Shown: piece by piece, positions 16,591-41,499 of the stretch
Layout: every line of letters begins with the position of its first letter
How positions within the stretch are numbered: the first letter of the stretch is position 1
From: Afipia sp.
GTDB taxonomy: Bacteria > Pseudomonadota > Alphaproteobacteria > Rhizobiales > Xanthobacteraceae
NCBI GenBank assembly: GCA_024707075.1
Contig: JANQAK010000001.1
Span: 580,001-644,000 of the forward strand
Length of the DNA stretch: 64,000 bases
Reading direction: 5' to 3'
Program-made: the position numbers and the translations under genes
Notes under the pieces: generated by a model
Databases searched by the model: none
Told to the model about the DNA's origin: nothing
The model's input: only the letters and a program-made list of their open reading frames with translations

Positions 16591-16751
16591 CTAGTGTCCC
16601 GAATCCGACGTTCGCCTCATTTTGCAGCCCCTCCAAAGCGAACGTCGGATTCGAAAGGACACTAGCCAATTATAGCTGCTAGTGGTCCGGCTCTGACATT
16701 CGCATCCCACCTCAGCGGCGCTCTTTGCGAATGTCAGAACCGGACCACTAG
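16591..16751 (+). repeat. Bipartite palindromic element, copy 1 (A-linker-B)
   Basis: Hairpin A 16591-16665: arm CTAGTGTCCCGAATCCGACG... pairs with the arm ending AAAGGACACTAG. Linker 16666-16678 CCAATTATAGCTG. Hairpin B 16679-16751: arm CTAGTGGTCCGGCTCTGACA pairs with GTCAGAACCGGACCACTAG. It fills the gap between the plsC-like start and the ydcF stop and supplies the TAG stop codon of the latter. Same architecture as the copies at 30034, 30481 and 41337. Confidence 0.9.
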
Positions 16752-17455
16752 TTGGCGGACGCGGTGGCCGGCTTTGATGACGGTGGCGGCGGCGAACCGG
16801 TTTCCGATAGACCGCCCTGCCCCACGCCGCCGAAGGCGACCCGCGTCTGCGCAAAAAGATACTTGGCGTATTCCGATAACAGGAGCCGCAGCGCCGCGCC
16901 ACTCGTCCACCATGGCTCCTCGCGCCACTTGTCCCCGACCACGGCGAACGGAACCAGATCGATATCGGGCATTGCGTGGGACAATTCAACGATCGCACGC
17001 GGCATATGATAGTTCGAAGTCACCACGATCAGGGAATGGAAGCCGCGCTCGGCCGCCCAGCGGCGTGTCTCGGTGGCATTGCTGCGGGTGTTGACGGCGG
17101 AGCGATCCAGATCGACGCAGCAGGCGAGCAGCCGCTGGCTGTCCGGCAACGTACGCTGGATATCATTGTAGCCGTTGGTGGGATGCACACCGGAAATCAG
17201 CAGCCGGTGACCATAGCCAGCCGAGAGCAGGTCCAGCGCATCCGAGACGCGCGACGATCCGCCGGTGAGGACCACGATGCCGTCGGCGTTGCGCGCCGGC
17301 TTGGCCTCTGTCGGCGGCACCTTGGAGAGAAAATCGACGAAACCCAGCCCGGCGAACAGAAGGATGGCAAAGCCCACAAGCATGGCGATGCGCCGGCGCA
17401 GGCGCCAATGTGTCGGTGCTCCATCGCGATGTCGTAACGTCTCGGGCAATCTCAA
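16748..17455 (-). CDS. YdcF/DUF218 family membrane-anchored protein
   Basis: One membrane helix near the N-terminus (IAMLVGFAILLFAGLGFVDF) and a DUF218 domain: DGIVVLTGGSSRVSDALDLL, RLLISGVHPTNG, ANTRSNATETRRWA-like NTRSNATETRRW and VVTSNYHMPRAIVEL. The E. coli members YdcF/SanA/ElyC influence envelope or undecaprenyl-carrier metabolism. The stop TAG comes from the terminal CTAG of repeat hairpin B, so the last residues (ATASAN) border the repeat. It lies downstream of ftsX on the same strand after a 138-nt gap. Confidence 0.88.
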   Translation of the reverse strand: MRLPETLRHRDGAPTHWRLRRRIAMLVGFAILLFAGLGFVDFLSKVPPTEAKPARNADGIVVLTGGSSRVSDALDLLSAGYGHRLLISGVHPTNGYNDIQRTLPDSQRLLACCVDLDRSAVNTRSNATETRRWAAERGFHSLIVVTSNYHMPRAIVELSHAMPDIDLVPFAVVGDKWREEPWWTSGAALRLLLSEYAKYLFAQTRVAFGGVGQGGLSETGSPPPPSSKPATASAN

Positions 17456-17593
17456 CTCACTCAGGTGCGATTTATAGTTCGCGCGCGGTCCCGCTCACTT
17501 TATCCCAAAATCCGGCACGGCTATGGCCTCAAAACGCCATCAACTCCATGTTCTGACACGTTTTCTTCACGAGACCAGAGCGCCGCAAGCGCT

Positions 17594-18556
17594 TTAATCG
17601 ATCTCTTCGAGGGTCGCAAACAGCGTCCGCCGCGAGGCCCATGCCGTCACGGCCGCGATCATCAGGGTCTGTGCTCCGAGCACCAGATATCCCGAGGCGG
17701 GCAACGCGAATGTCCCCAGCAATGCTGCAAACTGATCGCCGACCGGCGTGCCCGAGAACCAGCTTGCGATGGATTCGGAAAAGCCGAATGTCAGCATCGC
17801 GGCCAGCCCACCGATCAATCCGCCCTCGAGGCCGAGCCGCAAGAAATGGCGGAGGAAGCGGTTGGCGATATAGCGATCCTGCGCGCCCACGAAGTGCAGC
17901 ACCTCGACGATGGGCCGGTTGGCCGCCATCGCGCCTCGCGTGGCAAACGACACCGAAATGATGGTCGCCGCGATCACGAGAATGAGGATGCCCGTGCCGG
18001 CGAGCACGATCGCCCCCGTCATCGACCGCATGCGCTCGATCCAGGCGCGATGATCGTCGATGGTGGCCGCAGGCGCAGCCTGGGCCACGGCGCGGCGCAA
18101 CGCCGCCAGATCCGGGACCGCGCCCGGCGCGATGCGCACCACGATGACGCGGGGCACCGGCAGATCGTTCAGCGACAGTCCGGTGCCCAGCCATGGCTCC
18201 AGCAGCTTGGCCGACTCATCCTTCGTGAAGGGCCGCACCTCCAGAATGCCCGGCTGCGCCCGCGCGGTCTCCACCACGGCGCGCACGTCGCGCTCGATGT
18301 CGCGTCCCGGCGAGGGCCGCAACTGGATCGTCAGTTCACTCGACACATCGGACTGCCACTCGGCAGCGGAAGAGCGCACCAGCAGCACCGCGCCTGTCGT
18401 CATGGACGCCAGAAACGTCATGATGGCCACCACCGCGATCAGCGCGCGGCCGGCAATCGATCCGCGCGGAACGATCGGCGACATATTGCGCGCATTCGCC
18501 GCAACTTCCGCGGTGTTGTCGCCGAGATCCATCATGGGTTTGCGGTCTTCAATCAT
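17594..18556 (-). CDS. ftsX: Cell division ABC transporter permease FtsX
   Basis: Permease partner of FtsE that couples divisome assembly to activation of peptidoglycan hydrolases. 320 residues with an N-terminal membrane helix (LIAVVAIMTFLASMTTGAVL), a periplasmic domain (about residues 60-185), and three C-terminal helices (GILILVIAATIISVSF, LEGGLIGGLAAMLTFGF, YLVLGAQTLMIAAVTAW). ATG 18556 overlaps the ftsE stop (8 nt shared), the usual coupled arrangement. Confidence 0.95.
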   Translation of the reverse strand: MIEDRKPMMDLGDNTAEVAANARNMSPIVPRGSIAGRALIAVVAIMTFLASMTTGAVLLVRSSAAEWQSDVSSELTIQLRPSPGRDIERDVRAVVETARAQPGILEVRPFTKDESAKLLEPWLGTGLSLNDLPVPRVIVVRIAPGAVPDLAALRRAVAQAAPAATIDDHRAWIERMRSMTGAIVLAGTGILILVIAATIISVSFATRGAMAANRPIVEVLHFVGAQDRYIANRFLRHFLRLGLEGGLIGGLAAMLTFGFSESIASWFSGTPVGDQFAALLGTFALPASGYLVLGAQTLMIAAVTAWASRRTLFATLEEID

Positions 18557-19208
18557 AGATATGCAGCCGCGATTCATGCAGCACCATGCGCCGCGCCTCG
18601 TATTGATCCATCAGCGCGATGTCGTGGGTCGCGATAACGACGGCGGTGCCGGACTTGTTCAACTGAATGAAAAGACTGAGCAGCCGCCGAGCCAGCGACG
18701 GATCGACGTTGCCGGTCGGCTCGTCGGCCAGCAGCAGTTGCGGCCGGGCAATGACCGCGCGCGCGATTGCAGCGCGCTGCTTTTCGCCACCCGACAGGAT
18801 CGGCGGCAGCGCATCCATCCGCCTGCCGAGGCCGACCCAGTTGAGAAGATCGATGACTTCCTTGCGATAGCTGGATTCGCTTCGCCCCATGACACGGAAC
18901 GGCAGCGCGACGTTTTCATACGTCGTCATGTGATCGAGCAGCCGGAAGTCCTGCAACACGATGCCGATCCGCGAGCGCAGGTCGGCGCGCGCATCCTTGT
19001 CGAGCAGTGAGACGTCCTGCCCAAACAGATTGACCAACCCTCGCGTCGGGCGCAGCGACAGGAACAGCATGCGCAGAAGCGAAGTCTTGCCCGCGCCGGA
19101 CGGTCCGGTGAGAAACTGGAACGAGCGGGCGGGGATCTGGAAGGTCAGGTCGCGCAGAATCTCCGGGCCGAGCCCGTAGCGCAAACCGACATTTTCGAAC
19201 CGGACCAA
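18549..19208 (-). CDS. ftsE: Cell division ATP-binding protein FtsE
   Basis: ABC ATPase with Walker A GPSGAGKTS, Q-loop VLQDFRLL, signature LSGGEKQRAAIARA, Walker B LLLADEPTGNVD and H-loop ATHD. I place the start at TTG 19206-19208 (MVRFENVGLRYG), with GGAG six nt upstream, because it aligns with the normal FtsE N-terminus and gives 219 residues; longer upstream frames add unrelated sequence. Divergent from the zinc-ribbon gene at 19373. Confidence 0.96.
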   Translation of the reverse strand: MVRFENVGLRYGLGPEILRDLTFQIPARSFQFLTGPSGAGKTSLLRMLFLSLRPTRGLVNLFGQDVSLLDKDARADLRSRIGIVLQDFRLLDHMTTYENVALPFRVMGRSESSYRKEVIDLLNWVGLGRRMDALPPILSGGEKQRAAIARAVIARPQLLLADEPTGNVDPSLARRLLSLFIQLNKSGTAVVIATHDIALMDQYEARRMVLHESRLHIYD

Positions 19209-19372
19209 GCTCAGCTCCGTTCGACAGGACCGATAATGCCGCCGCCGGATACCGCAACCGGCGGACAACCTTTGGAAAGATAGCCGTAAAATGCTTGTGC
19301 GGCCGTTATGGTTTCCGATTCGTTAACGGACGCTGGATAGCTTCCTGACGAACTCCCTCTGGCGATCTGTCC

Positions 19373-20299
19373 ATGCACATTGTCTGCCCCCATTGTACGA
19401 CATCCTATGCAGTCGACCCGGCCAATTTCCCCGAGGCGGGGCGCCGGGTCCGTTGCGCCCGATGCCATGAAGTCTGGCTGGCGATGCCGGAGGAACTGGT
19501 GTCAGCGTCTGCCTCCAGGCAGGAGATGGAACAATCCGGTCAGGACAATGGCTTCGGACGCACAAGCGAGCCCACAGGCGATTGGCAGGATGACCCCGCC
19601 CCCCATGTGGAAAGCCCGTCGATTTCAGCCGACTGGCCGGACTCCGAGGTTTCGCAGCCGGCCGCCGAGACCGATCCATATTGGTCTTCGCTGGCCCAGC
19701 AGGAGGTCGCGGGCGATTCCGGCCCGGCCAAGGCTACCCGGCTGAAGGGCTTGAACCAGTCCCTTGGCAAATTTCTTCCCGGATTTTCGGGCAAGTCCTT
19801 TGGCACATCCGCAGCTCCCTTGCTGAAGCCCGCGAACTGGGCCAAAGCCCTTCCCGGCGCGCTGACGCTGCCCACGGCCTGCGTGGCGCTCGGCGCAATG
19901 GTGTTCGCCCTGATCGCCTGGCGTGCCGAAGTGGTGCGCGCGATGCCGCAAACCGCCGACTTTTTCAAAATGGCCGGCATGGGCGTGAACCTGCGCGGCC
20001 TCGCATTTGAGGATCTCAAGATCAGCACCGAGACCGTGAACAACAAGCCGGTGCTGCTGATCGAAGGCGCACTCGTCGACGTTGCGCGCAAGGCAGTCGA
20101 GATACCCCGGCTGCGATTCATCGTGCGCGACGCCAAGGGCAAGGACATCTACGCCTGGAATGCCGTGCTGGAGCAGCCGGTGCTCAACCCCGGCGAAAAA
20201 GCATGGTTCAAGACGCGGCTGGCCTCGCCGCCTGCGGAAGGCCGCGAAATTGCCGTCAGATTCTTCCACAAACTGGACCTTTCGTCCGGAGGAACCTGA
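19373..20299 (+). CDS. Zinc-ribbon (MJ0042-type) membrane protein
   Basis: N-terminal zinc finger CPHCTTSYAVDP...RCARCHEVW (two CxxC pairs within the first 35 residues), a Pro/Ser-rich low-complexity middle, one membrane helix around residues 165-185 (ACVALGAMVFALIAWRAEVV) and a C-terminal DUF3426-like beta domain (VEIPRLRFIVRDAKG, LNPGEKAWFKTRL). Function unknown. The stop codon TGA abuts the cpdR ATG directly, so the two are co-translated; ftsE lies divergently upstream, an arrangement seen in related rhizobial genomes. Confidence 0.88.
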   Translation: MHIVCPHCTTSYAVDPANFPEAGRRVRCARCHEVWLAMPEELVSASASRQEMEQSGQDNGFGRTSEPTGDWQDDPAPHVESPSISADWPDSEVSQPAAETDPYWSSLAQQEVAGDSGPAKATRLKGLNQSLGKFLPGFSGKSFGTSAAPLLKPANWAKALPGALTLPTACVALGAMVFALIAWRAEVVRAMPQTADFFKMAGMGVNLRGLAFEDLKISTETVNNKPVLLIEGALVDVARKAVEIPRLRFIVRDAKGKDIYAWNAVLEQPVLNPGEKAWFKTRLASPPAEGREIAVRFFHKLDLSSGGT

Positions 20300-20677
20300 A
20301 TGCCACGCGTTTTGATCGCAGACGATGAAGAATCGATGCGCCTTTTGGTGGCGCGCGCAATCGCCATGGACGGCCATGAAATCGTGACAGCGGAGGACGG
20401 CGCCGAGGCGCTTGAGATTCTGACGCGCGACGACGGCGCGTTCGATCTTCTTCTCACCGACATCAAGATGCCCATCATGGATGGCATCGCGCTGGCGCTC
20501 TCGGCGGCGCGCGACTTCCCGCGGTTGACCATTCTGCTGATGACCGGCTTCGCCGATCAGCGCGAGCGGGCCTCGGGGCTGGAAGCGATCGTCTACGACG
20601 TCGTCACCAAGCCATTTGCCGTGGCGGACATCCGCACCGCGGTCGCGGATGCGCTGGCGTCGCGGAAGGATAACTGA
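20300..20677 (+). CDS. cpdR: Response regulator CpdR
   Basis: Single-domain receiver of 125 residues: acidic pair DDEES near the N-terminus, phospho-acceptor Asp in LLTDIKMPIMDG, Thr in LLMTGFAD and Lys in DVVTKPF. CpdR in Caulobacter and Sinorhizobium is controlled by the CckA-ChpT relay and, when unphosphorylated, primes ClpXP to degrade cell-cycle proteins. Identification rests on length, sequence and neighbourhood with ftsEX. Confidence 0.9.
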   Translation: MPRVLIADDEESMRLLVARAIAMDGHEIVTAEDGAEALEILTRDDGAFDLLLTDIKMPIMDGIALALSAARDFPRLTILLMTGFADQRERASGLEAIVYDVVTKPFAVADIRTAVADALASRKDN

Positions 20678-20681
20678 GAAG

Positions 20682-21884
20682 CTACTCTGCCAGTTGCGTG
20701 ACAGGATCCCGCCGTCCGAGTGTCAGCCGCGTCAGGATGAAGGCCGCAACCGCGCAGGCGGCAATGGTCGCCACCATCGGCAATGACGTCCCGTTGAAGA
20801 ACGAACTGGCGACGGCGATCATGACCGCCCCGGTCACCATTTGCAGCGTTCCGCCCAGCGCCGACGCCATGCCGGCGATCGGCCCGTGGTCTTCCAGCGA
20901 GAGCACCATGGTCGATGGAATCACCAGGCCGAGCCATGCGAAGGCGACGAACAGCATGGCAATCAGCACTGCAAGATTGTCGACGCCCGCAGCCACGACG
21001 GCGAATAGCGCGACCGCCAGCACCGCGTAGCAGGTCACCGCCACCGAGACGACTCGCGCGATCCCGAAGCGTGCCGCGAGAAAGCCGCTGAACTGCGACG
21101 CGCCGATGAAGCCCACGGCGTTGACCGAGAACGCCAGACTGTATTGCGTCGGCGTCAGGCCGAAGTGCCCGATATAGACGAACGACGAACTGGCGAGGAA
21201 CGCGAAAAAGCTCGCCATGCCGAAGCCGCCGATGAACGTCAGCCCGAGAAAGTGCCAATCGCGCAACAGTTCGCCGAAGCCGTCGAGCACGCTGCGGACG
21301 CTGACCTCGACGCGTTCCTCGACTGGCCGGGTTTCGGGCAACACGAAGGCGACCAGCAGGAGCGAGACGATCGACGCGAGGGTGACCGCTACGAACACGG
21401 CGCGCCAGCCGAACGGCACGATCAGCGCGCTGCCGGTGAGCGGGGCGAGAATCGGCGAGACGCTGAACACCAGCATGACGAGCGCCATCAGCCGCGTCGC
21501 CTCGACGCCCGTGTGCAGATCGCGGATCACCGCGCGCGGAATCACCGCCACGGCGGCGGCGCCGAGGCCCTGCACGAAGCGGAAGAAGATCAGCCATCCG
21601 ATGCTCGGCGCCAGCCCGCAGCCGATGCTGCCGAGCGCGAAGATGACGATCCCGAAATAAAGCGGCGGCTTGCGGCCGACCATGTCCGACACCGGCCCGT
21701 AGGCGATCTGGCAGACGCCGAACGCCACGAAAAACACCATCAGCGTCATCTGCGTGGCCGCGGTGGACGCATGAAGGTCCGCCGCGATGGTCGGCAGCGC
21801 GGGAAGATACATATCGATGGCGAAAGGACCGATCGCGGAGAGAAGGCCCAGCACGATCGCATTTTTGGCAAAGCTCGATGACAT
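20682..21884 (-). CDS. Bcr/CflA family multidrug efflux MFS transporter
   Basis: About 400 residues with 12 predicted membrane helices. The N-terminal AIGPFAIDMYLPALPTIA and YGPVSDMVGRKPPLYFG (motif A), and the IPRAVIRDLHTG segment are characteristic of Bcr/CflA drug-proton antiporters. I chose ATG 21884 (MSSSFAKN) over an ATG seven codons earlier. It converges on cpdR with only 4 nt between stops and is divergent from the SDR gene. Confidence 0.92.
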   Translation of the reverse strand: MSSSFAKNAIVLGLLSAIGPFAIDMYLPALPTIAADLHASTAATQMTLMVFFVAFGVCQIAYGPVSDMVGRKPPLYFGIVIFALGSIGCGLAPSIGWLIFFRFVQGLGAAAVAVIPRAVIRDLHTGVEATRLMALVMLVFSVSPILAPLTGSALIVPFGWRAVFVAVTLASIVSLLLVAFVLPETRPVEERVEVSVRSVLDGFGELLRDWHFLGLTFIGGFGMASFFAFLASSSFVYIGHFGLTPTQYSLAFSVNAVGFIGASQFSGFLAARFGIARVVSVAVTCYAVLAVALFAVVAAGVDNLAVLIAMLFVAFAWLGLVIPSTMVLSLEDHGPIAGMASALGGTLQMVTGAVMIAVASSFFNGTSLPMVATIAACAVAAFILTRLTLGRRDPVTQLAE

Positions 21885-22069
21885 GGCGAGACGTATCCTG
21901 AACATTCTTGGCGATTGTGTGGGCGACGGGGCGATCAGTTCGAATCAGGGCGCAGCGGTCCGCGCCATCCAGACGTCGGACCCGCACGGGAAACTGTTGT
22001 GACAGCGCGCGAAAAATGGTCAATGCCATATCCGACGCACTCGGGGCCAATCAAGAAACGGAACGGGAC

Positions 22070-22858
22070 ATGACCAGGGAACAGCAGAAAGTCGCGCTGG
22101 TAACGGGCGCAGCGCGGGGCATCGGGCTTGCCGCGGCGAAACGATTTCTGGCCGAAGGCTGGCGCGTCGTGCTGCTCGACATCGAGAACGAGCTTCTCGC
22201 CCAGACATACAAGACGCTGGCCGCGCCGGATACCACGCTGGCAATCCATTGCGACGTGTCGGATGCCGACGCGGTCAATGCGGCTTTCAAGCAGGCCATT
22301 CAGCACTTCGGCCGGCTTGACGCGCTGGTCAACAATGCCGGCATCGCGATCTTCAAGCCGCTGCTGGAGACCACGCAGGCCGACTGGGACCGCGTGCTGG
22401 CCGTGAACTTGACCGGGCCGTTCCTCTGCACGCAGGCGGCGGCCCCGCTGATGCGCGACAACGGCGGCGGCGCGATCGTCAACATCACGTCGATTTCGGC
22501 GCTTCGCGCCTCGACGCTGCGCACCGCCTACGGCACCAGCAAGGCGGGCCTCGCCCATCTCACCAAACAATTTGCGGTAGAGCTCGCCACCCTCGGCATC
22601 CGCGTCAACGCGGTTGCGCCGGGCCCGGTCGATACCGCGATGGCGAAGGCGGTCCATACGCCCGCGATCCGCGCCGACTATCACGACACCATTCCGCTTA
22701 ATCGCTACGGCCTGGAAGAAGAACTCGCCGAGGCGATCTTCTTCCTGTGCAGCAGCCGCGCGAGCTACATCACCGGACAGATGCTGTGCGTCGACGGCGG
22801 CTTCGAGGCCACCGGCATCGGCCTGCCGACGCTGCGTGGAGAGGGCCGCAACGGATAG
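22070..22858 (+). CDS. SDR family oxidoreductase
   Basis: Classical short-chain dehydrogenase of 262 residues: cofactor motif TGAARGIGLAAAK, NNAGIAIF, catalytic Ser in ITSISALR, YGTSKAG (Tyr/Lys), and a C-terminal GQMLCVDGGFEATG ending. LLDIE after the second strand suggests NAD preference. ATG 22070 follows ACGGGAC. Substrate not evident; the divergent neighbour is an efflux transporter. The 139 nt after it hold only a 40-codon reading frame without support. Confidence 0.9.
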   Translation: MTREQQKVALVTGAARGIGLAAAKRFLAEGWRVVLLDIENELLAQTYKTLAAPDTTLAIHCDVSDADAVNAAFKQAIQHFGRLDALVNNAGIAIFKPLLETTQADWDRVLAVNLTGPFLCTQAAAPLMRDNGGGAIVNITSISALRASTLRTAYGTSKAGLAHLTKQFAVELATLGIRVNAVAPGPVDTAMAKAVHTPAIRADYHDTIPLNRYGLEEELAEAIFFLCSSRASYITGQMLCVDGGFEATGIGLPTLRGEGRNG

Positions 22859-28770: not shown

Positions 28771-30030
28771 TCACAACCAAGGCGCGGTGCGATCCATCGC
28801 GATCAGCGCATCGGCGTCGATGCGCGGGCGCACCACCGCGTACTGGCTGTCCTTGACCAGCACCTCGGGCACCAGCGCGCGAGTGTTGTAGCTGCCGGAC
28901 TGCACCGCGCCGTAAGCCCCGGCGGTCATGATCGCCAGCAGATCGCCCGGCTTCGGTTCGGCCATCATGCGATCGAGCGCAAGATAGTCGCCGGTCTCGC
29001 AGACCGGGCCAACCACGTCAGCGACGAAATTGCGCGCCGCATTCTCTCGCACCGGCAGGATGTCGTGATGCGCCTCGTACAACGTCGGGCGGATCAGATC
29101 GTTCATCGCCGCGTCGATGATGACGAAGTTCTTCGCATCGCCATGCTTCACATAGATCACGCGGCTGACAAGAATTCCGGCGTTGCCGACGATCATCCGG
29201 CCCGGCTCGAACATCAGTGTGGCATCGAGCCCCTTGGTCACGCGCTTGACCATCTCTGCATAGGCGGCAGGTTCCGGCGGATTGGGCAGATCGTGCTCGT
29301 AGGGGATGCCGAGGCCACCGCCGAAATCTACATGCGCGATGGTGTGACCATCATTGCGCAATATGCCGACGAATTCGACCAGCAGCTTGAACGCGTCTTC
29401 CATCGGCGCGAGATCGGTGATCTGGCTGCCGATATGCATGTCGACGCCGGTGACCTTGAGACCCGGCAGCTTCCCGGCGCGGGCATATACCTCACGGGCG
29501 CGGCTCAGCGGAATGCCGAACTTGTTCTCGGACTTGCCGGTCGAAATTTTCGCATGGGTCCTCGCGTCAACATCCGGATTGATGCGCACCGAAATGCGCG
29601 CGGTGCGCCCCGCCTCGCTCGCGAGTTGCGACAGCAGCTCAAGCTCCGGTTCGGACTCGACATTGATGCAGAGAATATTTTCGGCGAGCGCCTGGCGCAG
29701 CTCCGCTTCGGTCTTGCCGACGCCCGAGAACACGATCTTCTCCGGCGGAATGCCCGCTGCCCGCGCGCGCTTCAACTCGCCGCCGGACACCACATCGGCC
29801 CCCGCGCCGAGCTTCGCCAGCGTGCGCAACACGGACTGATTGGAATTCGCTTTCATCGCGTAACACACCAGCGTGGGAACGCCGGCAAAGGCTTCCGTGA
29901 ACACGCGATAGTGCCGCTCAAGGGTCGCTGTCGAATAGCAATAGAAGGGGGTTCCGACTTCGCCGGCAAGGCTGGCCAAGCTCACGTCTTCAGCGTGGAG
30001 CACGCCGTTGCGATACTGGAAATGATTCAT
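28771..30030 (-). CDS. lysA: Diaminopimelate decarboxylase LysA
   Basis: PLP enzyme converting meso-diaminopimelate to L-lysine. 419 residues, fold type III: PLP lysine in CYAMKANSN, HIGSQI, GGGLGIPY, EPGRMIVGNAG and the C-terminal CETGDYL (Cys/Glu) and GAYGAVQSGSYN. Starts at ATG 30030. The palindromic element copy 2 begins 4 nt upstream, so lysA transcription from the lptM side must cross two hairpins or start within the element. Confidence 0.97.
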   Translation of the reverse strand: MNHFQYRNGVLHAEDVSLASLAGEVGTPFYCYSTATLERHYRVFTEAFAGVPTLVCYAMKANSNQSVLRTLAKLGAGADVVSGGELKRARAAGIPPEKIVFSGVGKTEAELRQALAENILCINVESEPELELLSQLASEAGRTARISVRINPDVDARTHAKISTGKSENKFGIPLSRAREVYARAGKLPGLKVTGVDMHIGSQITDLAPMEDAFKLLVEFVGILRNDGHTIAHVDFGGGLGIPYEHDLPNPPEPAAYAEMVKRVTKGLDATLMFEPGRMIVGNAGILVSRVIYVKHGDAKNFVIIDAAMNDLIRPTLYEAHHDILPVRENAARNFVADVVGPVCETGDYLALDRMMAEPKPGDLLAIMTAGAYGAVQSGSYNTRALVPEVLVKDSQYAVVRPRIDADALIAMDRTAPWL

Positions 30031-30033: not shown

Positions 30034-30200
30034 CTAGCGATCCGATTCTGACATTCGTATCATCATTTTCCGCAGGCACCCTTTAACGAATGTCAGAATC
30101 GAAGGATCGCTAGAATTAATATTTCCTAGTGTCCTCTCGTATCCGACGTTCGTATGGAAAGCGTTGCAGACTGAAACGAACGTCGGATCCGGGACACGAG
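30034..30200 (-). repeat. Bipartite palindromic element, copy 2 (A-linker-B on minus strand)
   Basis: Hairpin B 30034-30113 (arms CTAGCGATCCGATTCTGACA and TGTCAGAATCGAAGGATCGCTAG), linker 30114-30125 AATTAATATTTC, hairpin A 30126-30200 (CTAGTGTCCTCTCGTATCC and GGATCCGGGACACGAG, one mismatch in the outer arm). Inverted relative to copy 3, the two enclosing lptM. Confidence 0.88.
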
Positions 30201-30201: not shown

Positions 30202-30477
30202 TCAGTCCAGGATCGCGTCGAGCGGGATGCGCTTTTTCTCGCCTCTGGGCGCAAGCGGCGCGCCGGTGCTGCCGGGCGGGCGATAGACCTCGCTCTGAAG
30301 ATTTGTCGCGGAATTCGGATTGGAGGTGGCGAAGTCCGACGTCGAACTCTGATCCACGACCGCGCCCGGAGGAGCATCGAGACCGGCCTTGCGGCCGCAT
30401 CCTGCCAGCGCGCAGGTCAATGCAATCAGCGCGGCGGCTGTCAGCTTCGGGAAGGAGCGGTTCGAACGAGAGGTCAC
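30202..30477 (-). CDS. lptM: LptM-type small lipoprotein
   Basis: 91 residues from a GTG start: positive N-terminus, hydrophobic stretch (LTAAALIALTCALAG) and lipobox LAGC followed by GRKAGLDAPPG, the short conserved block of the LptM (YifL) family. LptM helps mature the LptD-LptE lipopolysaccharide translocon at the outer membrane. Location between argH and lysA is conserved in this group (from memory). Here both sides are occupied by inverted copies of a palindromic element, whose arms lie 1-3 nt from the gene's start and stop. Confidence 0.88.
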   Translation of the reverse strand: MTSRSNRSFPKLTAAALIALTCALAGCGRKAGLDAPPGAVVDQSSTSDFATSNPNSATNLQSEVYRPPGSTGAPLAPRGEKKRIPLDAILD

Positions 30478-30480
30478 GTG

Positions 30481-30641
30481 CTAGTGTCCCGTATCCGACG
30501 TTTGCATCATTCGGCGGCGCCCTCCGTGCAAACGTCGGATACGAAGGACACTAGTAAATTATGATCTGAGTGATCCTTTGGTTCTGACATTCGTAAATGT
30601 GCCCGCGCAGATGGGATACGAATGTCAGAACCGGATCACTC
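30481..30641 (+). repeat. Bipartite palindromic element, copy 3 (A-linker-B)
   Basis: Hairpin A 30481-30554 (CTAGTGTCCCGTATCCGACG and CGTCGGATACGAAGGACACTAG), linker 30555-30567 with TAAATTATGATCT, hairpin B 30568-30641 (GAGTGATCCTTTGGTTCTGA and GTCAGAACCGGATCACTC). Lies between lptM and argH on the transcript. Confidence 0.9.
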
Positions 30642-30716
30642 GGCCCTGAATGGCGCGCCACCATACAAAGAAGGTGTGGTTCTGGCGAGGCCCGGATTGA
30701 ACGAAAATATCGGGGG

Positions 30717-32113
30717 TCAGCCCGAATTTTGCTCTTTTTCCAGCCGCTTGAGCCATTCCTTGGCCTGCGCGCGGACATTGGCCGGGGCGGTGCCGCCGTA
30801 ACTCGTGCGGCTCTCCACCGAAGCCTGTACGGACAGCACATCGAGCGCCGCGGCGGTGATCTTCGGCTCGATCGCCTGCATCTCGGAGAGCGGTACTTTA
30901 TGCAAGGCCAGTCCTTGCTCCGACGCCTTGGCGACGATGCGGCCGGTGACATGATGCGCGTCGCGGAACGGCATCTTCAGCGTGCGCACCAGCCAGTCGG
31001 CCAGATCGGTTGCGGTGGCATAGCCCTCACCTGCCGCCACTTTCATGCGCGCCTCTTCCGGCACCAGATCGAGCGTCATGCCGGTCATGGCGCGGATCGC
31101 CAGCGACAGCGCCGCGAAGGCCTCCATCGCGCCTTCCTTGTCTTCCTGCATGTCCTTTTGATAAGCGAGCGGAAGTCCCTTCATCACGATCAAGAGCGCC
31201 GTCAGCGAGCCGATGACGCGTCCCGTTTTGGCGCGCACAAGTTCGGCGGCATCGGGATTTCTCTTCTGCGGCATGATCGACGAGCCGGTGGTGAACTTGT
31301 CCGACAGCCGCACCAGTCCCACCAATGGCGAGGTCCAGATCACGATCTCTTCGGCGAAGCGCGACAGATGCACTGCCGCGATTGCCGCCGCCGACAGCGT
31401 CTCCAGCACGAAGTCGCGATCGGACACCGCGTCCAGCGAATTTGCCATCGGCCGGTCGAAACCGAGCGCGCTTGCGGTGGCATGACGATCGATCGGAAAC
31501 GACGTTCCCGCCAGCGCGGCGGCGCCGAGCGGACTTTCGTTCAGCCGCTTGCGAGCATCGGCGAACCGGCCGCGATCGCGCGCCGCCATTTCGGTGTAGG
31601 CCAAAAGATGATGACCGAAGGTCACCGGCTGCGCGGTCTGCAAATGGGTGAAGCCCGGCATCACGGTGTCGGCGTGCTCGATGGCGCGATCGACCAGCGC
31701 GCGCTGAAATCCGGCCAGCGCCTTGTCGATGTCGTCGATGACGTCGCGAACATAGAGCCGGAAATCGGTCGCGACCTGATCGTTGCGCGAACGCGCGGTG
31801 TGCAGACGGCCAGCCGCAGGCCGATCAGTTCGCCGAGCCTGCTCTCGACATTCATGTGGATGTCTTCGAGCGCGCGCTTGAAGGTGAAAGAGCCCTTGCC
31901 GATCTCTGACAAAATCGTGTCTAGACCGCCCGCGATGTTTTTTGCATCGTTCGCCGTAATGATGCCTTGAGCGGCAAGCATGGCTGCATGGGCCTTGGAC
32001 GCGGCGATGTCCTGGGCGTAAAGGTGCTGATCGACGTCGATGGAGACGTTGATCTCCTCCATGATCGCATCGGGGCTTTCACCGAAGCGGCCGCCCCACA
32101 TCTTGTTGCTCAT
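30717..32113 (-). pseudogene. argH: Argininosuccinate lyase ArgH, frameshifted
   Basis: Last step of arginine synthesis. N-terminal frame: [22 protein letters not shown] through [17 protein letters not shown]-terminal frame: [22 protein letters not shown], the catalytic-loop [20 protein letters not shown], and DLADWLVR. The junction at 31818-31822 (plus strand AGGCC) lacks one C: restoring it yields [16 protein letters not shown], the expected active-site motif. Corrected length about 465 is normal. A required enzyme with a one-base homopolymer deletion, so a sequencing error is the likely cause. Confidence 0.93.
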
Positions 32114-32179
32114 CTTTATCCCGCCAAACGTCTTCGCAAAATTCCACTCACCACCATCGCAACCGATCTGTCCCGGAGT

Positions 32180-32866
32180 ATGACAAGCAAGATGCCTGAA
32201 CCCGTCCAGCAACACACCGGCCAGCCCCGAAAACCCTTCCGCCGCATTCCGATGGTGATCGCCGCCATCCTTATAGGCGCGGCGATCGGATATGTCGGGG
32301 TATACGGGATCGGTGGGTTAACAGGCAATCCGCCCGGCGACCCGGCGTGCCGTCCGGCGGTCGATCTGGCCAAAAAAATCGCCCCCTTGGCGCGCGGCGA
32401 GGTGGCGGCATTAACCATGGCGACCAGCCCGCTACGCGTGCCGGACCTCGCCTTCGACGACGCCGACGGCAAACCGCGCAAGCTGTCCGAGTGGCGCGGC
32501 AAAACAGTGCTCGTCAATCTGTGGGCGACGTGGTGCGTGCCGTGCCGGAAGGAAATGCCGGCGCTGGACGACCTGCAAGGCAAGCTCGGCGGGCCAGGCT
32601 TCGAGGTGGTCGCCATCAACATCGACACCCGCGACCTCGACAAGCCGAAGACCTTCCTGAAGGAGGCCTCCCTCACCCGCCTCGGCTATTTCGCCGACCC
32701 GAAGGCCAAGGTGTTTCAGGAGTTGAAAGCCGTCGGCCGTGCATTGGGAATGCCGACCTCCATCCTCGTCGATGGCGCGGGCTGCGAAATCGCCACCATT
32801 GCCGGTCCCGCCGAATGGGCCAGCGACGACGCGGTGAAACTCATCAAGGCGGCCTCCGGGCAATAA
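32180..32866 (+). CDS. tlpA: TlpA-type membrane-anchored thioredoxin
   Basis: Periplasmic thiol-disulfide reductase anchored by an N-terminal helix ([21 protein letters not shown]). Thioredoxin fold with active site [13 protein letters not shown] and the cis-Pro segment MPTSILVD; an extra Cys pair-like PACRPAV and GAGCEIA are seen. Bradyrhizobium TlpA reduces Cu-chaperone and CoxB cysteines for cytochrome oxidase assembly. Divergent from argH, as is typical. Start ATG 32180 or 32192; the SD-like CGGAG better suits the second. Confidence 0.9.
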
Positions 32867-35108: not shown

Positions 35109-35114
35109 CCGACT

Positions 35115-35309
35115 TCAGACCGAAATATCGAGATTGCCGCCGACGCCCGGCGCGTTATTCGCTGCCGGTGCGTTCTGAGCCGGATCGAGCAGTTGCAGCA
35201 CCGATTGTTCTGAATTGATGTTCTGCTTCAGGACGCTGGTCGCGATCTGCTGCTGGGTATTGGCCGCCTGCATGGCCATCATGCTGCTGACGATACTCAT
35301 CAAGTCCAT
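35115..35309 (-). CDS. YjfB family putative motility protein
   Basis: 64 residues: MDLMSIVSSMMAMQAANTQQQI at the N-terminus, then VLKQNINSEQSVLQLL. This short helical family (YjfB_motility) is linked by annotation to flagellar motility, without a known mechanism. No flagellar genes are in the window. The stop lies 7 nt from the end of the convergent VOC gene. Confidence 0.75.
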   Translation of the reverse strand: MDLMSIVSSMMAMQAANTQQQIATSVLKQNINSEQSVLQLLDPAQNAPAANNAPGVGGNLDISV

Positions 35310-35392
35310 GACAAACGCACCCGCTCCAATCGACGTGGCGGGACACTAGCCGGAAACGGTTAATGAATCTTGGACAAACGCCGCGCGGCGGA

Positions 35393-36271
35393 TCAGCGCG
35401 TCGGGACCGGCTTGTCGCCACGATAGTCGTAGAAGCCGCGCTGCGACTTGCGGCCGAGCCAGCCGGCCTCGACATATTTCACCAGCAGCGGGCACGGGCG
35501 ATACTTCGAATCCGCCAAACCCTCGTGCAGCACCTGCATGATCGACAGACAGGTATCGAGGCCGATGAAGTCCGCCAGTTCGAGCGGCCCCATCGGATGA
35601 TGGGCACCGAGCTTCATGGCCGCGTCGATGGCCTCGACGTTGCCGACGCCTTCATACAGCGTGTAGATCGCCTCGTTGATCATCGGCAGCAGGATGCGGT
35701 TGACGATGAAAGCCGGGAAATCCTCCGAGACGGCGATCTGCTTGCCGAGCTTGGTGACGAATTGGCGCGCGGTATCGAACGTCGCGTCGTCGGTAGCGAT
35801 GCCGCGGATCAGTTCGACCAGTTCCATCACCGGAACCGGATTCATGAAATGGATGCCGATGAAGCGCTCAGGCCGATCTGTCGAGGCCGCAAGGCGGGTG
35901 ATCGAGATCGACGACGTATTGGACGCGATGATCGCCTCGGGCCGCAGCACCGCGCAGACATCGTGGAAAATCTTGCGCTTGATGTCTTCCTTCTCGACCG
36001 CGCTCTCGATCACGAGATCGCAGGCGGCCAGACCTTCGATAGTGTCCGACGACGTGATCTTGTCGAGCGCACGCTTGTGCGCTTCTTCGGTGATGGTCTT
36101 CCGGGCGACCTGACGCGACAGGTTGCCGTTGATGGTGGCCATCGCCGACTTAAGCCGGTCGGCTGACACATCGTTGAGCACCACATTGAAGCCCGCCAAT
36201 GCGGCAACATGGGCGATGCCGTTGCCCATCTGCCCCGACCCAATCACACCAACCGTCTTGATCGCTACCAT
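35393..36271 (-). CDS. hbdA: 3-hydroxybutyryl-CoA dehydrogenase
   Basis: NAD-dependent oxidation/reduction of 3-hydroxybutyryl-CoA. 292 residues: Rossmann motif VIGSGQMGNGIAHVAA, SNTSSISITRLA, catalytic His in GIHFMNPVPVMELVE and the C-terminal DFPAFIVNRILLPMINEA and PMGPLELADFIGLD. Ends YDY. ATG 36271. It follows etfB-etfA on the same strand after 178 nt, tying fatty-acid/PHB-type dehydrogenation to the electron-transfer flavoprotein. Confidence 0.95.
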   Translation of the reverse strand: MVAIKTVGVIGSGQMGNGIAHVAALAGFNVVLNDVSADRLKSAMATINGNLSRQVARKTITEEAHKRALDKITSSDTIEGLAACDLVIESAVEKEDIKRKIFHDVCAVLRPEAIIASNTSSISITRLAASTDRPERFIGIHFMNPVPVMELVELIRGIATDDATFDTARQFVTKLGKQIAVSEDFPAFIVNRILLPMINEAIYTLYEGVGNVEAIDAAMKLGAHHPMGPLELADFIGLDTCLSIMQVLHEGLADSKYRPCPLLVKYVEAGWLGRKSQRGFYDYRGDKPVPTR

Positions 36272-36449
36272 TCGCTTCCGGTCTCTGCGGCTTTCGGTTT
36301 CTGGGTTCTCGGTCTCTCGGGATACGGCAATCGCTCTGCCGCGCCCCTTCAACAGTACGTCAGACACCGGCGGGCGTTTCAGAATTCCCGCCGGGTCCGG
36401 CGTGCAGCATAACACGATCCCGGCGCATCGCGCGCCGGGACGTCAGTTG

Positions 36450-37385
36450 TCAAAGCGCGGCGGTCAGTTCCGGAACCGCCTGATAGAGGTCGGCGACCAG
36501 ACCGAAATCCGCGACCTGGAAGATCGGGGCATCTTCGTCCTTGTTGATCGCGACGATCACCTTGGAGTCCTTCATGCCGGCGAGATGCTGGATCGCACCG
36601 GAAATGCCGATGGCGATGTACAGCTCGGGCGCGACCACCTTGCCGGTCTGACCGACCTGCCAATCGTTCGGCGCGTAGCCGGCGTCCACCGCAGCGCGCG
36701 AGGCGCCGACGCCGGCGCCGAGCTTGTCGGCGAGCGGCTCGATGTACTTGGCGAAGTTCTCGCGGCTCTGCATGGCGCGGCCACCGGACACGATGATCTT
36801 GGCCGAGGTCAGTTCCGGCCGGTCGCTCTTGGCGACTTCCTCGCCGACGAAACTCGACAGCGCCGGATCGGCCGCGGCCGCAGCGTTTTCCACGGACGCG
36901 CTGCCGCCATCGCCCGCCGCGCCGAATGTGGAGGTGCGCACGGTGATGACCTTCTTGGCATCCTTCGACTTCACGGTCTGGATCGCGTTGCCCGCATAGA
37001 TCGGCCGCTCGAACGTATCGGGCGAAACGACCTTGATGATCTCGGAGATCTGCATCACATCGAGCAGGGCTGCGACGCGCGGCATCACGTTCTTGAAGCG
37101 CGAGGTCGCAGGCGCGACGAAAGCGTCATACGAACCGCCCAGCGAGACGATCAGTGCGGCCAGCGGCTCGGCCAGATCATGCTCATAGATCGCGTTCTCC
37201 GCGAGCAGGACCTTGGTGACGCCCTTGAGCTTCGCAGCCGCTTCGGCGGCGCCCTTGGTGCCCTCGCCGCCACCCGCCACCAGAACGTGGACGTCAGCGC
37301 CGAGCGCGGCCGCAGCCGTCAACGCCTTGTTGGTAGAATCCTTGAGGGTGGCGTGGTCGTGTTCGGCAATCAGCAATGTAGCCAT
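36450..37385 (-). CDS. etfA: Electron transfer flavoprotein subunit alpha
   Basis: 311 residues. FAD-binding C-terminal domain with [44 protein letters not shown] signature (GQTGK) and the [18 protein letters not shown] motif. Passes electrons from acyl-CoA dehydrogenases to ETF:quinone oxidoreductase. Its ATG (37385) shares one base with the etfB stop region, so the two are coupled. Confidence 0.97.
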
Positions 37386-38131
37386 CAGAGCGCCCCGACT
37401 TCCTTGAGTTTCGACACCAGTTCAGCGACGTCCTTGACCTTGACGCCCGCCTTGCGGCCCGGCGGTTCGGATGTCTTGAGAACTTCGAGACGCGGCGTGA
37501 GATCGACGCCGAACGTATCGGCGGCCTTCTCATCGATCGGCTTCTTCTTCGCCTTCATGATGTTGGGAAGGCTGGCGTAGCGCGGCTCGTTGAGACGCAG
37601 GTCGGTGGTGACGATCGCCGGTCCCTTGACCTTCACGGTCTGGAGGCCGCCGTCGACTTCACGCGTGACCTTGAAGTCCGATCCGTCGACTTCGAGCTTG
37701 GAGGCGAAGGTCGCCTGCGACCAGCCGAGCAACGCGGCCAGCATCTGGCCGGTCTGGTTGCTGTCGTCGTCGATGGCCTGCTTGCCGAGAATGACGAGGC
37801 CCGGCTTTTCTTCGTCCACCACGGCTTTGAGAATCTTGGCAACGGCGAGCGGCTCGACAGTGCCTTCGGCCTTCACGAGGATGCCGCGGTCGGCGCCCAT
37901 GGCGAGGCCGGTGCGGATGGTTTCCGACGCCTGCGCAGGTCCGATCGACACCACCACGACCTCGGTCGCCTTGCCGGCCTCTTTCAGGCGCAGGGCTTCC
38001 TCGACGGCGATTTCGTCGAACGGATTCATCGACATCTTGACGTTGGCGAGTTCGACACCCGTCCCGTCGCTCTTGACGCGAATTTTGACGTTGTAGTCAA
38101 CGACGCGTTTAACCGGCACCAGAACCTTCAT
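37385..38131 (-). CDS. etfB: Electron transfer flavoprotein subunit beta
   Basis: 248 residues: [45 protein letters not shown] and [22 protein letters not shown], the AMP-binding family signature. AAAGGGAACCG lies upstream of the ATG. First gene of etfB-etfA-hbdA. Confidence 0.97.
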
Positions 38132-38262
38132 CGGTTCCCTTTCGTCCTGAATTGGTTGATCACTTCCACTTAAAGCAGCGGTTGGCGGCGGAACCTAATG
38201 GTCCCGCCAATCCGGGTCAACGCGCGAAAACTGGAAATCAAGGAAGGTATACCTAATATCTG

Positions 38263-38835
38263 TCACCGGTTCTGGCCGGGGACCCAGAGCACGTCGCGGG
38301 CGCCGTTGTCGTTAACCGCGCGGCTGGCCACGAACAGAAAATCCGACAGCCGGTTCAGATACTGGATGGCGGCATCGCTCACCGGCTCGTTCGGCTGGGA
38401 TGCCAGTTCCACCACCATGCGCTCCGCCCGGCGGCAGACGGTGCGCGCCAGATGCAGGTGGGCGGCGGCCGGCGTTCCGCCAGGCAAAATAAACGAGTTC
38501 AGCGGCGCGAGACTGGCGTTGAGCGCATCGATGTCATGTTCGAGCCGCTCGACCTGCGTCGCCAGCACGCGCAGCCGCTCCACCTTGCCCTCACGCTGCG
38601 GCACCGCCAGGTCGGCGCCGAGATCGAACAGGTCGTTCTGCACCCGTCCGAGCATGGCATCGATCGGCTGCGCCTGCCCCAGATGCAGACGAGCGACGCC
38701 GATGGCGGCGTTGGTTTCGTCGACGGTTCCATAGGCGCTGACGCGCAGGTCGTATTTCGGGCGGCGTTCGCCGCTGCCCAGCGCCGTGGTGCCGTCGTCA
38801 CCGGTGCGGGTATAAATCCGATTGAGAATGACCAT
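38263..38835 (-). CDS. PduO-type cob(I)alamin adenosyltransferase
   Basis: Makes adenosylcobalamin from cob(I)alamin and ATP. 190 residues from ATG 38835: MVILNRIYTRTGDDGTTALGSGERRPKYD (ATP-binding N-terminus), VDETNAAIG and the C-terminal YLNRLSDFLFVASRAVN. A further upstream ATG (38889) adds 18 residues without family support. It is followed upstream by a HIG1-like gene on the same strand. Confidence 0.95.
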   Translation of the reverse strand: MVILNRIYTRTGDDGTTALGSGERRPKYDLRVSAYGTVDETNAAIGVARLHLGQAQPIDAMLGRVQNDLFDLGADLAVPQREGKVERLRVLATQVERLEHDIDALNASLAPLNSFILPGGTPAAAHLHLARTVCRRAERMVVELASQPNEPVSDAAIQYLNRLSDFLFVASRAVNDNGARDVLWVPGQNR

Positions 38836-38889
38836 CGCGTCGATCCGTTTGGCAGTGGGGTAACGGTTGAACCGGTCCGCCTTCGTCAA

Positions 38890-39087
38890 TCAGCTTTTGC
38901 CGAGCATCCAGACGGCAAGCATCGCAATGACGATGGCAATGAACTGGAACAGCACGCGCAGCCGCATCAGCTTCTGCGAGGTGTTGGGCGAGCCGCCGCG
39001 CATCATATTGAACAGACCGAGCAGAAGCACGATCGTGACTGCGGCCAAGGCGATGGGAAGAGCAATACTGCTGAGAAACGATGACAT
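38890..39087 (-). CDS. HIG1-type twin-transmembrane small protein
   Basis: 65 residues with two helices (SSIALPIALAAVTIVLLLGLF and LFQFIAIVIAMLAVWML) separated by the loop RGGSPNTSQKLMRLRV, the HIG1/RCF1-like pattern of alphaproteobacterial small proteins. Possible role in cytochrome oxidase assembly is extrapolated from mitochondrial homologues. ATG 39087. Confidence 0.85.
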   Translation of the reverse strand: MSSFLSSIALPIALAAVTIVLLLGLFNMMRGGSPNTSQKLMRLRVLFQFIAIVIAMLAVWMLGKS

Positions 39088-39228
39088 AACGGCTACATAA
39101 CACCGGCTGAGCCGTCGCGCCATTCCCCGCCAAAAAATTGGCTGGAGAGCACCTTTTGCGTGCGCAACCGTACATGACTTTAATGCCTCGACGCGTTAAA
39201 TCATCGGTGTGATGGATCAGGGTGGAAT

Positions 39229-40110
39229 GTGAGGCAAATTCTCAAGGCCTTCAACGTCGCGCTCGATGCGTTCTACACGTTCCTGGCCGATGACGGCTGG
39301 GCGATTGCCAGCCACATCGCGCTGTCGGCGCTGATGGCGCTGTTTCCCTTCCTGATCGTGATTACCTCGCTCGCCGGGTTCTTCGGCTCCGAGGATCTTG
39401 CCGACCAGGCCGCCCAGCTCATGCTGGACACTTGGCCCTCGCAAGTGGCCAGCGCACTGTCCGGCGAAATTCACGATGTGCTGACCCAGTCGCACGGCGG
39501 GACGCTGACCATTGGCCTCGTGCTTGCAATATATTTTGCCTCGAACGGCGTCGAAAGCCTTCGCGTCGGACTTAACCGGGCCTACAGCGTGGTCGAGACG
39601 CGCCGCTGGTACTGGCTCCGCCTCGAATCGATCGGCTACACCATGATTGCGGCGGTGATGTCGCTGGCGATGGCATTTCTCATCGTGCTCGGTCCGCTCA
39701 TTCTGGCTTTCGCGCGGCGCTATGTTCCGCTGCGCGTCGAGCCCAACGAGAATCTTTTCAATCTCTTGCGTTACGGTCTCACCATCGCCGCGCTGATCGT
39801 CGCGCTGATTATCCTGCACAAGTGGCTGCCGGCAGGCACGCGCAGAATGCGCGACATCATGCCGGGCATCGTCGTGACGATGATCGCATCGCTGGTCTCC
39901 GGCATGGTGTTCGGCCAGTACCTCGCGCGCTTCGCCAGCAATTATGTCACGACCTATGCCGGACTCGCGTCGGTGATGATCGCACTGGTGTTCCTGTATT
40001 TCATCGCCGCGATTTTCGTCTACGGCGGCGAACTCAACGCCAGCATCGTCAAGGCGCGCGAGAACGCTCCGTCGCCTCAAGAAGCGCCGTCGCCAGCGCG
40101 CGCGGGCTGA
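39229..40110 (+). CDS. YihY/BrkB family inner-membrane protein
   Basis: 293 residues from GTG 39229, with about six helices. Family motifs: DDGWAIASHIALSALMALFPFLIV, YFASNGVESLRVGLNRAYSV, RRYWLRLESI-like WYWLRLESIGYT, and the final TYAGLASVMIALVFLYFIAAIFVYGGELNA. The old RNase BN name is incorrect for this family; role unknown. Its 3' end overlaps the convergent sensor kinase gene by 62 nt. Confidence 0.92.
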   Translation: MRQILKAFNVALDAFYTFLADDGWAIASHIALSALMALFPFLIVITSLAGFFGSEDLADQAAQLMLDTWPSQVASALSGEIHDVLTQSHGGTLTIGLVLAIYFASNGVESLRVGLNRAYSVVETRRWYWLRLESIGYTMIAAVMSLAMAFLIVLGPLILAFARRYVPLRVEPNENLFNLLRYGLTIAALIVALIILHKWLPAGTRRMRDIMPGIVVTMIASLVSGMVFGQYLARFASNYVTTYAGLASVMIALVFLYFIAAIFVYGGELNASIVKARENAPSPQEAPSPARAG

Positions 40111-41320
40111 CCGGCTTGGTCACGAATGCGTCGGCGCCTGCGGCACGCGACGCCTGTTCGTCTTCAACGCGGCCCGACACGCCGATAATGGCGATGCGCC
40201 CATGCGTTCCTTCAAGTGCGCGGATGCGCCGGATCGCCTCGACGCCGTCGATGCCCGGCAACACCATGTCCATCAGCACCGCGTCGAAATCGCCTTGCGC
40301 GATCCGCTCAGGGGCGGCCTCCCCGCGCCCGATGAAGTCCGCCTGATGGCCGAGTTCGGTCAGGATGGCATTGAGTACAACGCGGCCGAACGGATTGTCC
40401 TCAATGCTCAGGATGCGAAGGCCCTGCGGAAACTCCAGCGCCATATCCGATGCCGGCGCTTCGCTCTTCAACTCCTTGGCCCGCTTGAGCGCAACGGTCA
40501 GCGTGAAGGTCATGCCGCCGCCGCGCTGCTGTGACGCTGTGATGTCGCCGCCCATGGCGCGGGCCAACTGCTTGACCGACGACAACCCGAGACCCGCGCC
40601 GCCAAAGCGCGCGGCGATGCTAACATTGGCCTGCGAGAACGGCTTGAACAGCCGCTTGATCTCCGCAAGCGTGAGACCGATGCCGCTGTCGGACACCGCG
40701 AACACAACACTGAGCTTCCCGCCAGTGCCTGACACGGCGGAAACGTTCAGAGCGACCTTGCCCTGCGGCGTGAACTTGACGGCATTGTCGATCAGGTTTT
40801 CCAGCGCGGCCCGCAGACGAACCGGATCGCCGATCACGAAGCCCGGCAGTTTCGCGGCGATCTCGACCTGCGACTGCAACCCCTTGGCGGCAGCACGGCC
40901 CGCCAGCGAATCCCCGATCGCCAGCGCCAACGTCCGCAGATCGAAAAAATCCTGACGTACCGAGAGCCCGGCATTGCCGCTGCGCGCGGCATCGACGAAC
41001 AGCGTAGCAAGCGCCGCCAGATGCTCCGCGCCGACCTTGATCGTGTCCACCCAGCGCCGTTCACGTTCGCCGAGTTCGGATGTCGCGAGCAGCGAACTGA
41101 TCGCCAGAATGCCGGTCAGCGGCGTGCGGACCTCATGGGCAAAGGCCGCCAGCGCCGCCTCAACGATTCGGGCCTCGGACGGCGCACGCCGCGCCCGGGA
41201 CTTCCGGTCCGCCGGCTTGACAGCTTTCTTTTTCGGCGCGCGTTTCTTTGGCGCAGCCGGCTTCGCCGCACGCTTGGCGCGCGTCTTCAGGCTACGTTTT
41301 GCGGGCGATTTCGCCGCCAT
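40049..41320 (-). CDS. Hybrid sensor histidine kinase/response regulator
   Basis: 423 residues: a Lys/Ala/Arg-rich N-terminus (MAAKSPAKRS... KKRAPKKKAVKPADRK), HisKA with AFAHEVRTPLTGILA, HATPase_c (LENLIDNAVKF, VSDSGIGL, FGGAGLGLSSVKQLARAMGG), and a receiver with phospho-Asp in VLMDMVLPGIDGVEAI and Lys in AFVTKP. No membrane segment or input domain, so it is cytoplasmic; the basic tail could bind DNA or membrane. ATG 41320 is the sensible start; the frame continues upstream into a palindromic repeat. Partner unknown. Confidence 0.9.
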   Translation of the reverse strand: MAAKSPAKRSLKTRAKRAAKPAAPKKRAPKKKAVKPADRKSRARRAPSEARIVEAALAAFAHEVRTPLTGILAISSLLATSELGERERRWVDTIKVGAEHLAALATLFVDAARSGNAGLSVRQDFFDLRTLALAIGDSLAGRAAAKGLQSQVEIAAKLPGFVIGDPVRLRAALENLIDNAVKFTPQGKVALNVSAVSGTGGKLSVVFAVSDSGIGLTLAEIKRLFKPFSQANVSIAARFGGAGLGLSSVKQLARAMGGDITASQQRGGGMTFTLTVALKRAKELKSEAPASDMALEFPQGLRILSIEDNPFGRVVLNAILTELGHQADFIGRGEAAPERIAQGDFDAVLMDMVLPGIDGVEAIRRIRALEGTHGRIAIIGVSGRVEDEQASRAAGADAFVTKPVSPRALATALLEATERSRAP

Positions 41321-41336
41321 GATTCCCCAACCCATC

Positions 41337-41499
41337 CAGTGTGGTGGTTCGCAAGTCCGCATTGTTTTTGCAGCACGTTCTTTTGCGGACTTGCGAACCA
41401 AAACCACACTGAAGTTATAAATTTCCAGTGTCCTTTTGAATCCGAAGTTCGCTCCGGAGCGTGCTGCAAAAGGAGGCGAACTTCGGATTCAGGACACTG
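41337..41499 (-). repeat. Bipartite palindromic element, copy 4 (A-linker-B on minus strand)
   Basis: Hairpin B-type 41337-41411 (CAGTGTGGTGGTTCGCAAGT with ACTTGCGAACCAAAACCACACTG; the most divergent B), linker 41412-41425 AAGTTATAAATTTC, hairpin A 41426-41499 (CAGTGTCCTTTTGAATCCGA with TTCGGATTCAGGACACTG). It lies between the divergent-side start of the sensor kinase gene and the end of gluQ. Confidence 0.88.

Follow-up and report, generated by a model that had tools for sequence, protein, structure and literature searches.

What kind of repeat occurs four times in a 64,000-nucleotide stretch of an Afipia sp. genome (GCA_024707075.1, contig JANQAK010000001.1, positions 580,001 to 644,000; hereafter the window), each time as two hairpins, A and B, separated by a short linker? 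A first-pass annotation had described this layout, and all four copies are present, each reading hairpin A, linker, hairpin B once oriented, with arms that were recovered by an inverted-repeat scan. Judged from sequence comparison, the copies very probably represent a non-autonomous miniature inverted-repeat transposable element (MITE) of the IS630/Tc1-mariner type, built from two palindromic end modules. As in other MITEs, the element is short (about 160–168 bp in the model matches) and has no transposase gene of its own, inner open reading frames (ORFs) having been examined for length only.

The window's genome (5.30 Mb in 7 contigs) has been scanned with a covariance model, R1, which found at least 58 distinct loci with strong scores. 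The best 150 of 1340 candidates were scored, so that 58 is a lower bound, and two weaker matches (E 0.08 and 0.8) were excluded from the count. All but one of the 58 loci are full length, the single shortened locus being 135 bp long (C1:514336-514470), and the pairing of A with B is therefore fixed. The further copies and constant partnership that the annotation had anticipated are thus borne out, and A and B hairpins scattered without partners were not what the scan found. Two of these copies (L012 in G000:C6 and L013 in G000:C1) are identical including their flanks, the segment being present twice in the assembly. Within the family, R1 gave matches at E<=1e-6 in 85 of 149 genomes, representing 33 of 47 genera, with the best 19 candidates at most scored per genome. 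An exact pattern for the inner arm of A was found in 24 of 101 genomes and 2 of 73 genera, a narrow reach that indicates how far the stems have drifted. Among the matches listed, the named contigs with that pattern are mostly from Afipia, with some from Nitrobacter and one Bradyrhizobium entry; listed titles from other phyla are probably due to chance or contamination. The stems are put together in various combinations out of a set of recurring modules, and copy number within the genus ranges from none to dozens. A plasmid search with copy 4 returned seven Roseibium/Labrenzia records, and the Roseibium plasmid element has an identical layout with different stems. The same search with a copy from G123, which belongs to a different genus of the family, gave no match.

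Scanning of the collected loci yielded 259 units, of which 194 are pairs, 56 are lone hairpins and 9 are arrays of three or four. Both hairpins carry a bulge of 2–4 nt (mostly 3) on the linker-facing arm in 187 of the 194 pairs, usually AAA for the left hairpin and TTT for the right one, and the proportion is 94 of 98 when loci fetched by a bulge-containing pattern are left out. It may be asked whether the single hairpin is the mobile unit and pairs result from hairpins landing side by side. CTAG-like feet do bound every hairpin, the arrays make up 9 of the 259 units, and G123 contains two bulge-free lone hairpins, the true single L434 and a second in L432 that was missed by the scan and found by eye. 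Against this stand the full pairs at 57 of 58 loci in the window's genome, the AT-rich linker, which is 11–14 bp long in all 187 bulged pairs and conserved in sequence, and the identical unit in G123, which is the entire pair; side-by-side landing is accordingly very unlikely. Inspection of the 56 singles by eye showed that most adjoin a weaker or cut partner, and that L369 and L375 seem unrelated. No transposase-like ORF was seen by eye between a lone G123 hairpin and the full copy 1.9 kb away. Three- or four-hairpin arrays occur at L069, L056 and L130, where some neighbouring hairpins share one CTAG.

Past movement of the unit can be read from the G123 sequence, where six copies agree at all 165 positions while their flanks, up to CTAG, are unrelated. 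Two further groups of two identical copies likewise combine unrelated flanks with exact CTAG ends, and CTAG is found at both ends in 26 of 30 G123 copies. At L379, L383, L390 and L393, an element is inserted at the linker-bordering CTAG of another, and that site has changed from CTAG to CTAG-element-CTAG. The identical copies with unrelated flanks and the four nested insertions show at the level of sequence that the unit moves, with exact ends, and that it targets CTAG. The bases adjoining CTAG are not repeated beyond chance in G123 (4 and 9 of 30), and duplication of TA and of CTAG are indistinguishable in these data. Two other repeats were observed beside recent copies in G123: one ends in CTAG, and the second contains AAAACCGG and TTTTCGGGATCATGC-like words. 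The loci bordered by these two repeats are L389 and L398 (left flanks) and L371, L372, L377 and L387.

The outer arms link the element to a transposase. A pattern for the outer arm, which the inner arms do not match owing to their insertions, has 37 forward and 37 reverse matches in G123. An unpartnered outer arm at 1770589 of that genome proved to be the right end of a 372-residue ORF (locus L433) identified as an IS630 transposase (NF033545, E 1.7e-80; PF13358), and each of the two ends of this locus has 22 of 25 bases in common with the alpha2 outer arm. Plasmid homologues of the ORF were taken from the best 30 of 694 records, and eight loci were read. With L433 included, at least one such end bordering CTAG was recognised by eye in 9 of 9 loci and both ends in 6 of 9; a first automatic search had found both ends in 5 of 9. 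One end of L444 (Roseomonas) is identical to the alpha2 outer arm (25/25), and L448 (Roseovarius) shares 23 of 25 bases with the variant end found in the Roseibium element. L442 (Bradyrhizobium) has an A-like left end (21/25), which borders CTAA and not CTAG, and a B-like right end (23/25), the same polarity as in the element. IS630 elements are reported, in excerpts of PMC2170065, to insert at TA with its doubling, and a preference for CTAG is cited there. From the ends and the target, we infer that an enzyme of the IS630 type moves the unit.

A repetitive extragenic palindromic (REP) element, a bacterial interspersed mosaic element (BIME) or a REPIN would instead be moved by a Y1 transposase (REP-associated tyrosine transposase, RAYT) acting on single-stranded hairpins. 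The inverted palindrome pairs with a bulge and conserved spacer recall REP dimers as described in excerpts of PMC3733652, PMC2817692 and PMC8266576, and the elements occur in 13 of 16 genomes with a Y1 gene versus 72 of 133 others. Y1 genes (PF01797) were nevertheless detected in just 16 of the 149 family genomes; none occurs in the high-copy genomes G013, G024, G005 and G028, and G123 is outside the 16. The window's genome has an IS200/Y1-type transposase gene (L031, G000:C5:178906-179265) whose frames are split; neither hairpin A nor hairpin B occurs in the 3.1 kb of sequence read there. Each hairpin has CTAG-type feet at both ends, in contrast to GTAG (or CGTC) at one end in REP. The distribution of Y1 genes and the context of the gene in the window's genome speak against a RAYT or other Y1 gene as the driver; no Y1 transposase is required, and mobilisation by this route is hardly credible. 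The annotation had offered a transposase-mobilised element of MITE or REP type; the MITE option and the view of a distinct, BIME-like mobile element with a fixed pair stand, and the REP/RAYT route falls away.

The mechanism can be outlined as follows. The outer arms would serve as terminal inverted repeats of the type bound by IS630 transposases, and the unit would be cut and pasted into CTAG, with doubling of TA or of the whole CTAG. Hairpin A resembles a left-type end of an insertion sequence (IS; TGTCCCGA..AAGTTCGC) and hairpin B, in the closest IS case, a right-type end (TGTGGTGG..AAGTTCGC); each end would have been doubled to a palindrome, giving two opposed palindromes with the short AT linker between them. 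The 2–4 extra nucleotides in the linker-facing arms would give the inner end copies a wrong spacing, leaving them dead, and the hairpins would travel as one unit because these inner copies are disabled. A more elaborate version, held with somewhat less than even confidence, is that of a self-insulating composite MITE in which the ends are doubled, the 3-nt inner insertion blocks solo movement, hairpin modules are swapped when one element inserts into another at a shared CTAG, and co-evolution of the stems serves the proliferating DNA and not the host.

Several observations weigh against an IS630-type MITE. Agreement with the IS ends is poor for the beta1 and gamma outer arms (14–18 of 25), which implies other IS630 relatives that were not seen. 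The window's genus yielded no intact IS630 gene of this clade; homologues of any kind are present there in 4 of 29 genomes at 31–62% identity, and the window's own genome has an 86-residue IS630 relic (L440) with no such ends nearby. The inner-inner bulge pattern is lacking in 7 of 194 pairs, among other exceptions. Because bulged copies served to build R1, the set of loci that it finds may be biased; its E-values are rough. At sites orthologous to the window copies in 29 Afipia genomes, full copies, internal deletions and empty sites were recorded, and the empty sites read CTG, CCAG, CGG or CGAG-like words with no exact CTAG. These inexact sites may reflect later mutation or imprecise loss. 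The window copies look old and diverged, fossil-like in the window's genome.

The fold has been examined in an alignment of 27 copies from the window's genome. The two hairpins comprise 25 and 26 bp (51 pairs), 98.0% of the cells are paired, and both sides have changed at 26 of the 51 pairs. Sliding the partners by 1–3 columns lowers pairing to 25.5–36.4%. In 500 shuffles, neither the paired percentage nor the both-side counts nor the covariation score of the real alignment was equalled; 51 of the 500 attained as many further pair types. Changes were also counted pairwise between copies, with shared changes counted repeatedly. Copies at different insertions that are <80% identical differ by 2709 compensated versus 666 one-sided changes, those >80% identical by 240 versus 260, and orthologous copies at the same site by 34 versus 170, with 27 of the 34 compensated changes coming from copy 2. 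The annotation had taken compensated arms to mean that the fold is under selection or copied by conversion; the compensation is real, and selection in place finds no support in the orthologues as far as tested. Mismatches of G-T and A-C type are equal in sum (94 vs 94), with opposite leanings in the window's genome (27 vs 47) and in its relatives (67 vs 47).

Very stable predicted folds (-71 to -98 kcal/mol) and strong covariation could point to a structured RNA in transcripts, such as a 3'-untranslated-region stabiliser or a signal for RNase III or termination, kept by host selection. The equality of G-T and A-C mismatches speaks against it, as do the counts in gene sense (12 vs 10 in 23 tandem copies), the 18 of 56 copies that lie in gaps between divergent genes, the mainly one-sided changes in orthologues, and the lack of any Rfam family at threshold. 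One-sided change at orthologous sites and the mismatch balance give no sign of a host RNA function and disfavour a host-maintained fold; the RNA explanation is highly improbable. The data fit stems that were formed and kept during proliferation of the element and mostly left unrepaired later. Kissing loops between A and B, prompted by the similarity of the loops, were also considered and rejected: complementarity within elements is no higher than across elements in 8 of 8 subtype groups (lowest permutation p 0.19), and two groups of the window's genome are lower within elements (p 0.97 and 0.998). The Rfam scan of the whole window gave matches at gathering score for a SAM_alpha riboswitch aptamer and a tRNA and none for the element; ceN88 and mir-203 overlap copies at a permissive threshold (five loci), far below gathering scores, and were taken as chance. 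A nucleoid-protein site bound at the linker has in its favour that the linker is short, AT-rich and conserved in pattern. Precise mobility and the IS630 end identity account for the unit without such a protein, copy number within the genus varies from none to dozens, and this is the least probable of the explanations.

Placement of the element at gene ends has been examined with gene positions from a simple ORF caller. The word CTAG occurs 26 times in the window where 221 are expected; 9 of the 26 are within elements, and 5 of the remaining 17 are TAG stops of predicted genes. Of 56 copies in the window's genome, 23 are between tandem genes, 18 between divergent and 13 between convergent genes, with 1 called within a gene and 1 unclear. 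A copy is faced by 49 gene 3' ends; 13 of these stop exactly at the TAG of the foot and 6 elsewhere within the element (p 0.002, assuming one in three per frame). The strong avoidance of CTAG suggests an explanation for this placement, in that some remaining sites are TAG stops and a stop would be preserved on insertion.

The window copies differ in detail from the earlier description. One shared pair of cores had been proposed; this does not extend to copy 4, which belongs to another subtype with A core ATCCGAAG and B core GGTTCGCAAGTCCGC and not TCTGACATTCG. Outer CTAG ends, said to occur in most copies, hold on both sides for copy 1 only, and the ends are CTAG/CGAG in copy 2, CTAG/CTCG in copy 3 and CCAG/CTGG in copy 4, the non-CTAG ends being mostly matched by a corresponding change on the opposite arm of that hairpin. 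Nor had the description mentioned the short bulges of the linker-facing arms; copy 1 has an AAA bulge in hairpin A only, hairpin B being without one, and copy 4 has both AAA and TTT. Copy 2 is between the LptM-like and lysA-type ORFs, and copy 3 is upstream of the LptM-like ORF on the side of the argH-type ORFs. Neighbour identities are from Pfam, the LptM match being below its Pfam cut-off; with argH-, LptM- and lysA-type ORFs, a reading of this operon as leuS-lptE-holA is wrong. The argH-type gene is split into two overlapping ORFs covering different parts of Lyase_1, which reflects a frame break or a sequence error.

Table 1. Features of the window; positions count from its first letter.
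Feature	Position	Strand	Details	Basis
Copy 1	16591-16751	+	hairpin A 16591-16665, linker 16666-16678, hairpin B 16679-16751	sequence; model match 145.7 bits
Copy 2	30034-30200	-	hairpin B 30034-30113, linker 30114-30125, hairpin A 30126-30200	sequence; model match
Copy 3	30481-30642	+	hairpin A 30481-30554, linker 30555-30566, hairpin B 30567-30642	sequence; model match
Copy 4, second subtype	41336-41500	-	hairpin B 41336-41412, linker 41413-41424, hairpin A 41425-41500	sequence; model match 177.8 bits
CTAG foot of copy 1	16748-16751	-	TAG at 16748-16750 is the stop codon of the DUF218-domain ORF 16748-17383 (-)	
lysA-type decarboxylase ORF	28771-30030	-		Pfam
LptM-like ORF	30202-30477	-		Pfam, below cut-off
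argH-type gene	30717-32215	-	ORFs 30717-31664 and 31661-32215	Pfam
SAM_alpha riboswitch aptamer	10634-10713	-		above Rfam gathering score
tRNA	57399-57480	+		above Rfam gathering score
Perfect inverted repeat	13834-13880		21-nt arms, 5-nt loop; not related to the element	

Intergenic elements with two large palindromes are known in Rhizobium as RIME, and the likeness is one of description. Searches of the open-licence literature brought up no description recognised as this element. The following comparisons draw on excerpts of the papers cited. RUP of Streptococcus pneumoniae (107 bp) has been ascribed to IS630-Spn1 and is, like the present element, a small non-coding and mostly intergenic unit with IS630-like ends and a TA-containing target (PMC2229807). 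Unlike RUP, which has a 9-bp terminal repeat (PMC2229807), the present element has two complete palindromes of 25–26 bp, bulged inner arms and a fixed linker. The Correia/NEMIS elements of Neisseria, too, are described as MITEs of IS630 origin that form stem-loops and have TA at their ends (PMC2229807, PMC2817692); by description they carry the terminal repeats of one element, whereas two separate hairpins are present here. BIMEs, REP dimers and REPINs share inverted palindrome pairs, bulges, hybrid dimers, arrays and compensated stems (PMC3733652, PMC2817692, PMC8266576), but a REP unit measures 20–40 bp, bears GTAG at a single end and is associated with a Y1 transposase, in contrast to hairpins of about 75 bp with CTAG at both feet and IS630 ends. 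Br-REP1 and Br-REP2 of Bradyrhizobium are intergenic palindromic repeats from the same bacterial family, and their printed consensus sequences differ from these hairpins (PMC5082802). Overall, an origin is proposed for an intergenic repeat that occurs in 33 of 47 sampled genera and reaches no Rfam threshold, one that is BIME-like yet tied to a DDE transposon, and it is an example from nature of compensatory changes in bacterial palindromes that do not have to imply RNA or host function.

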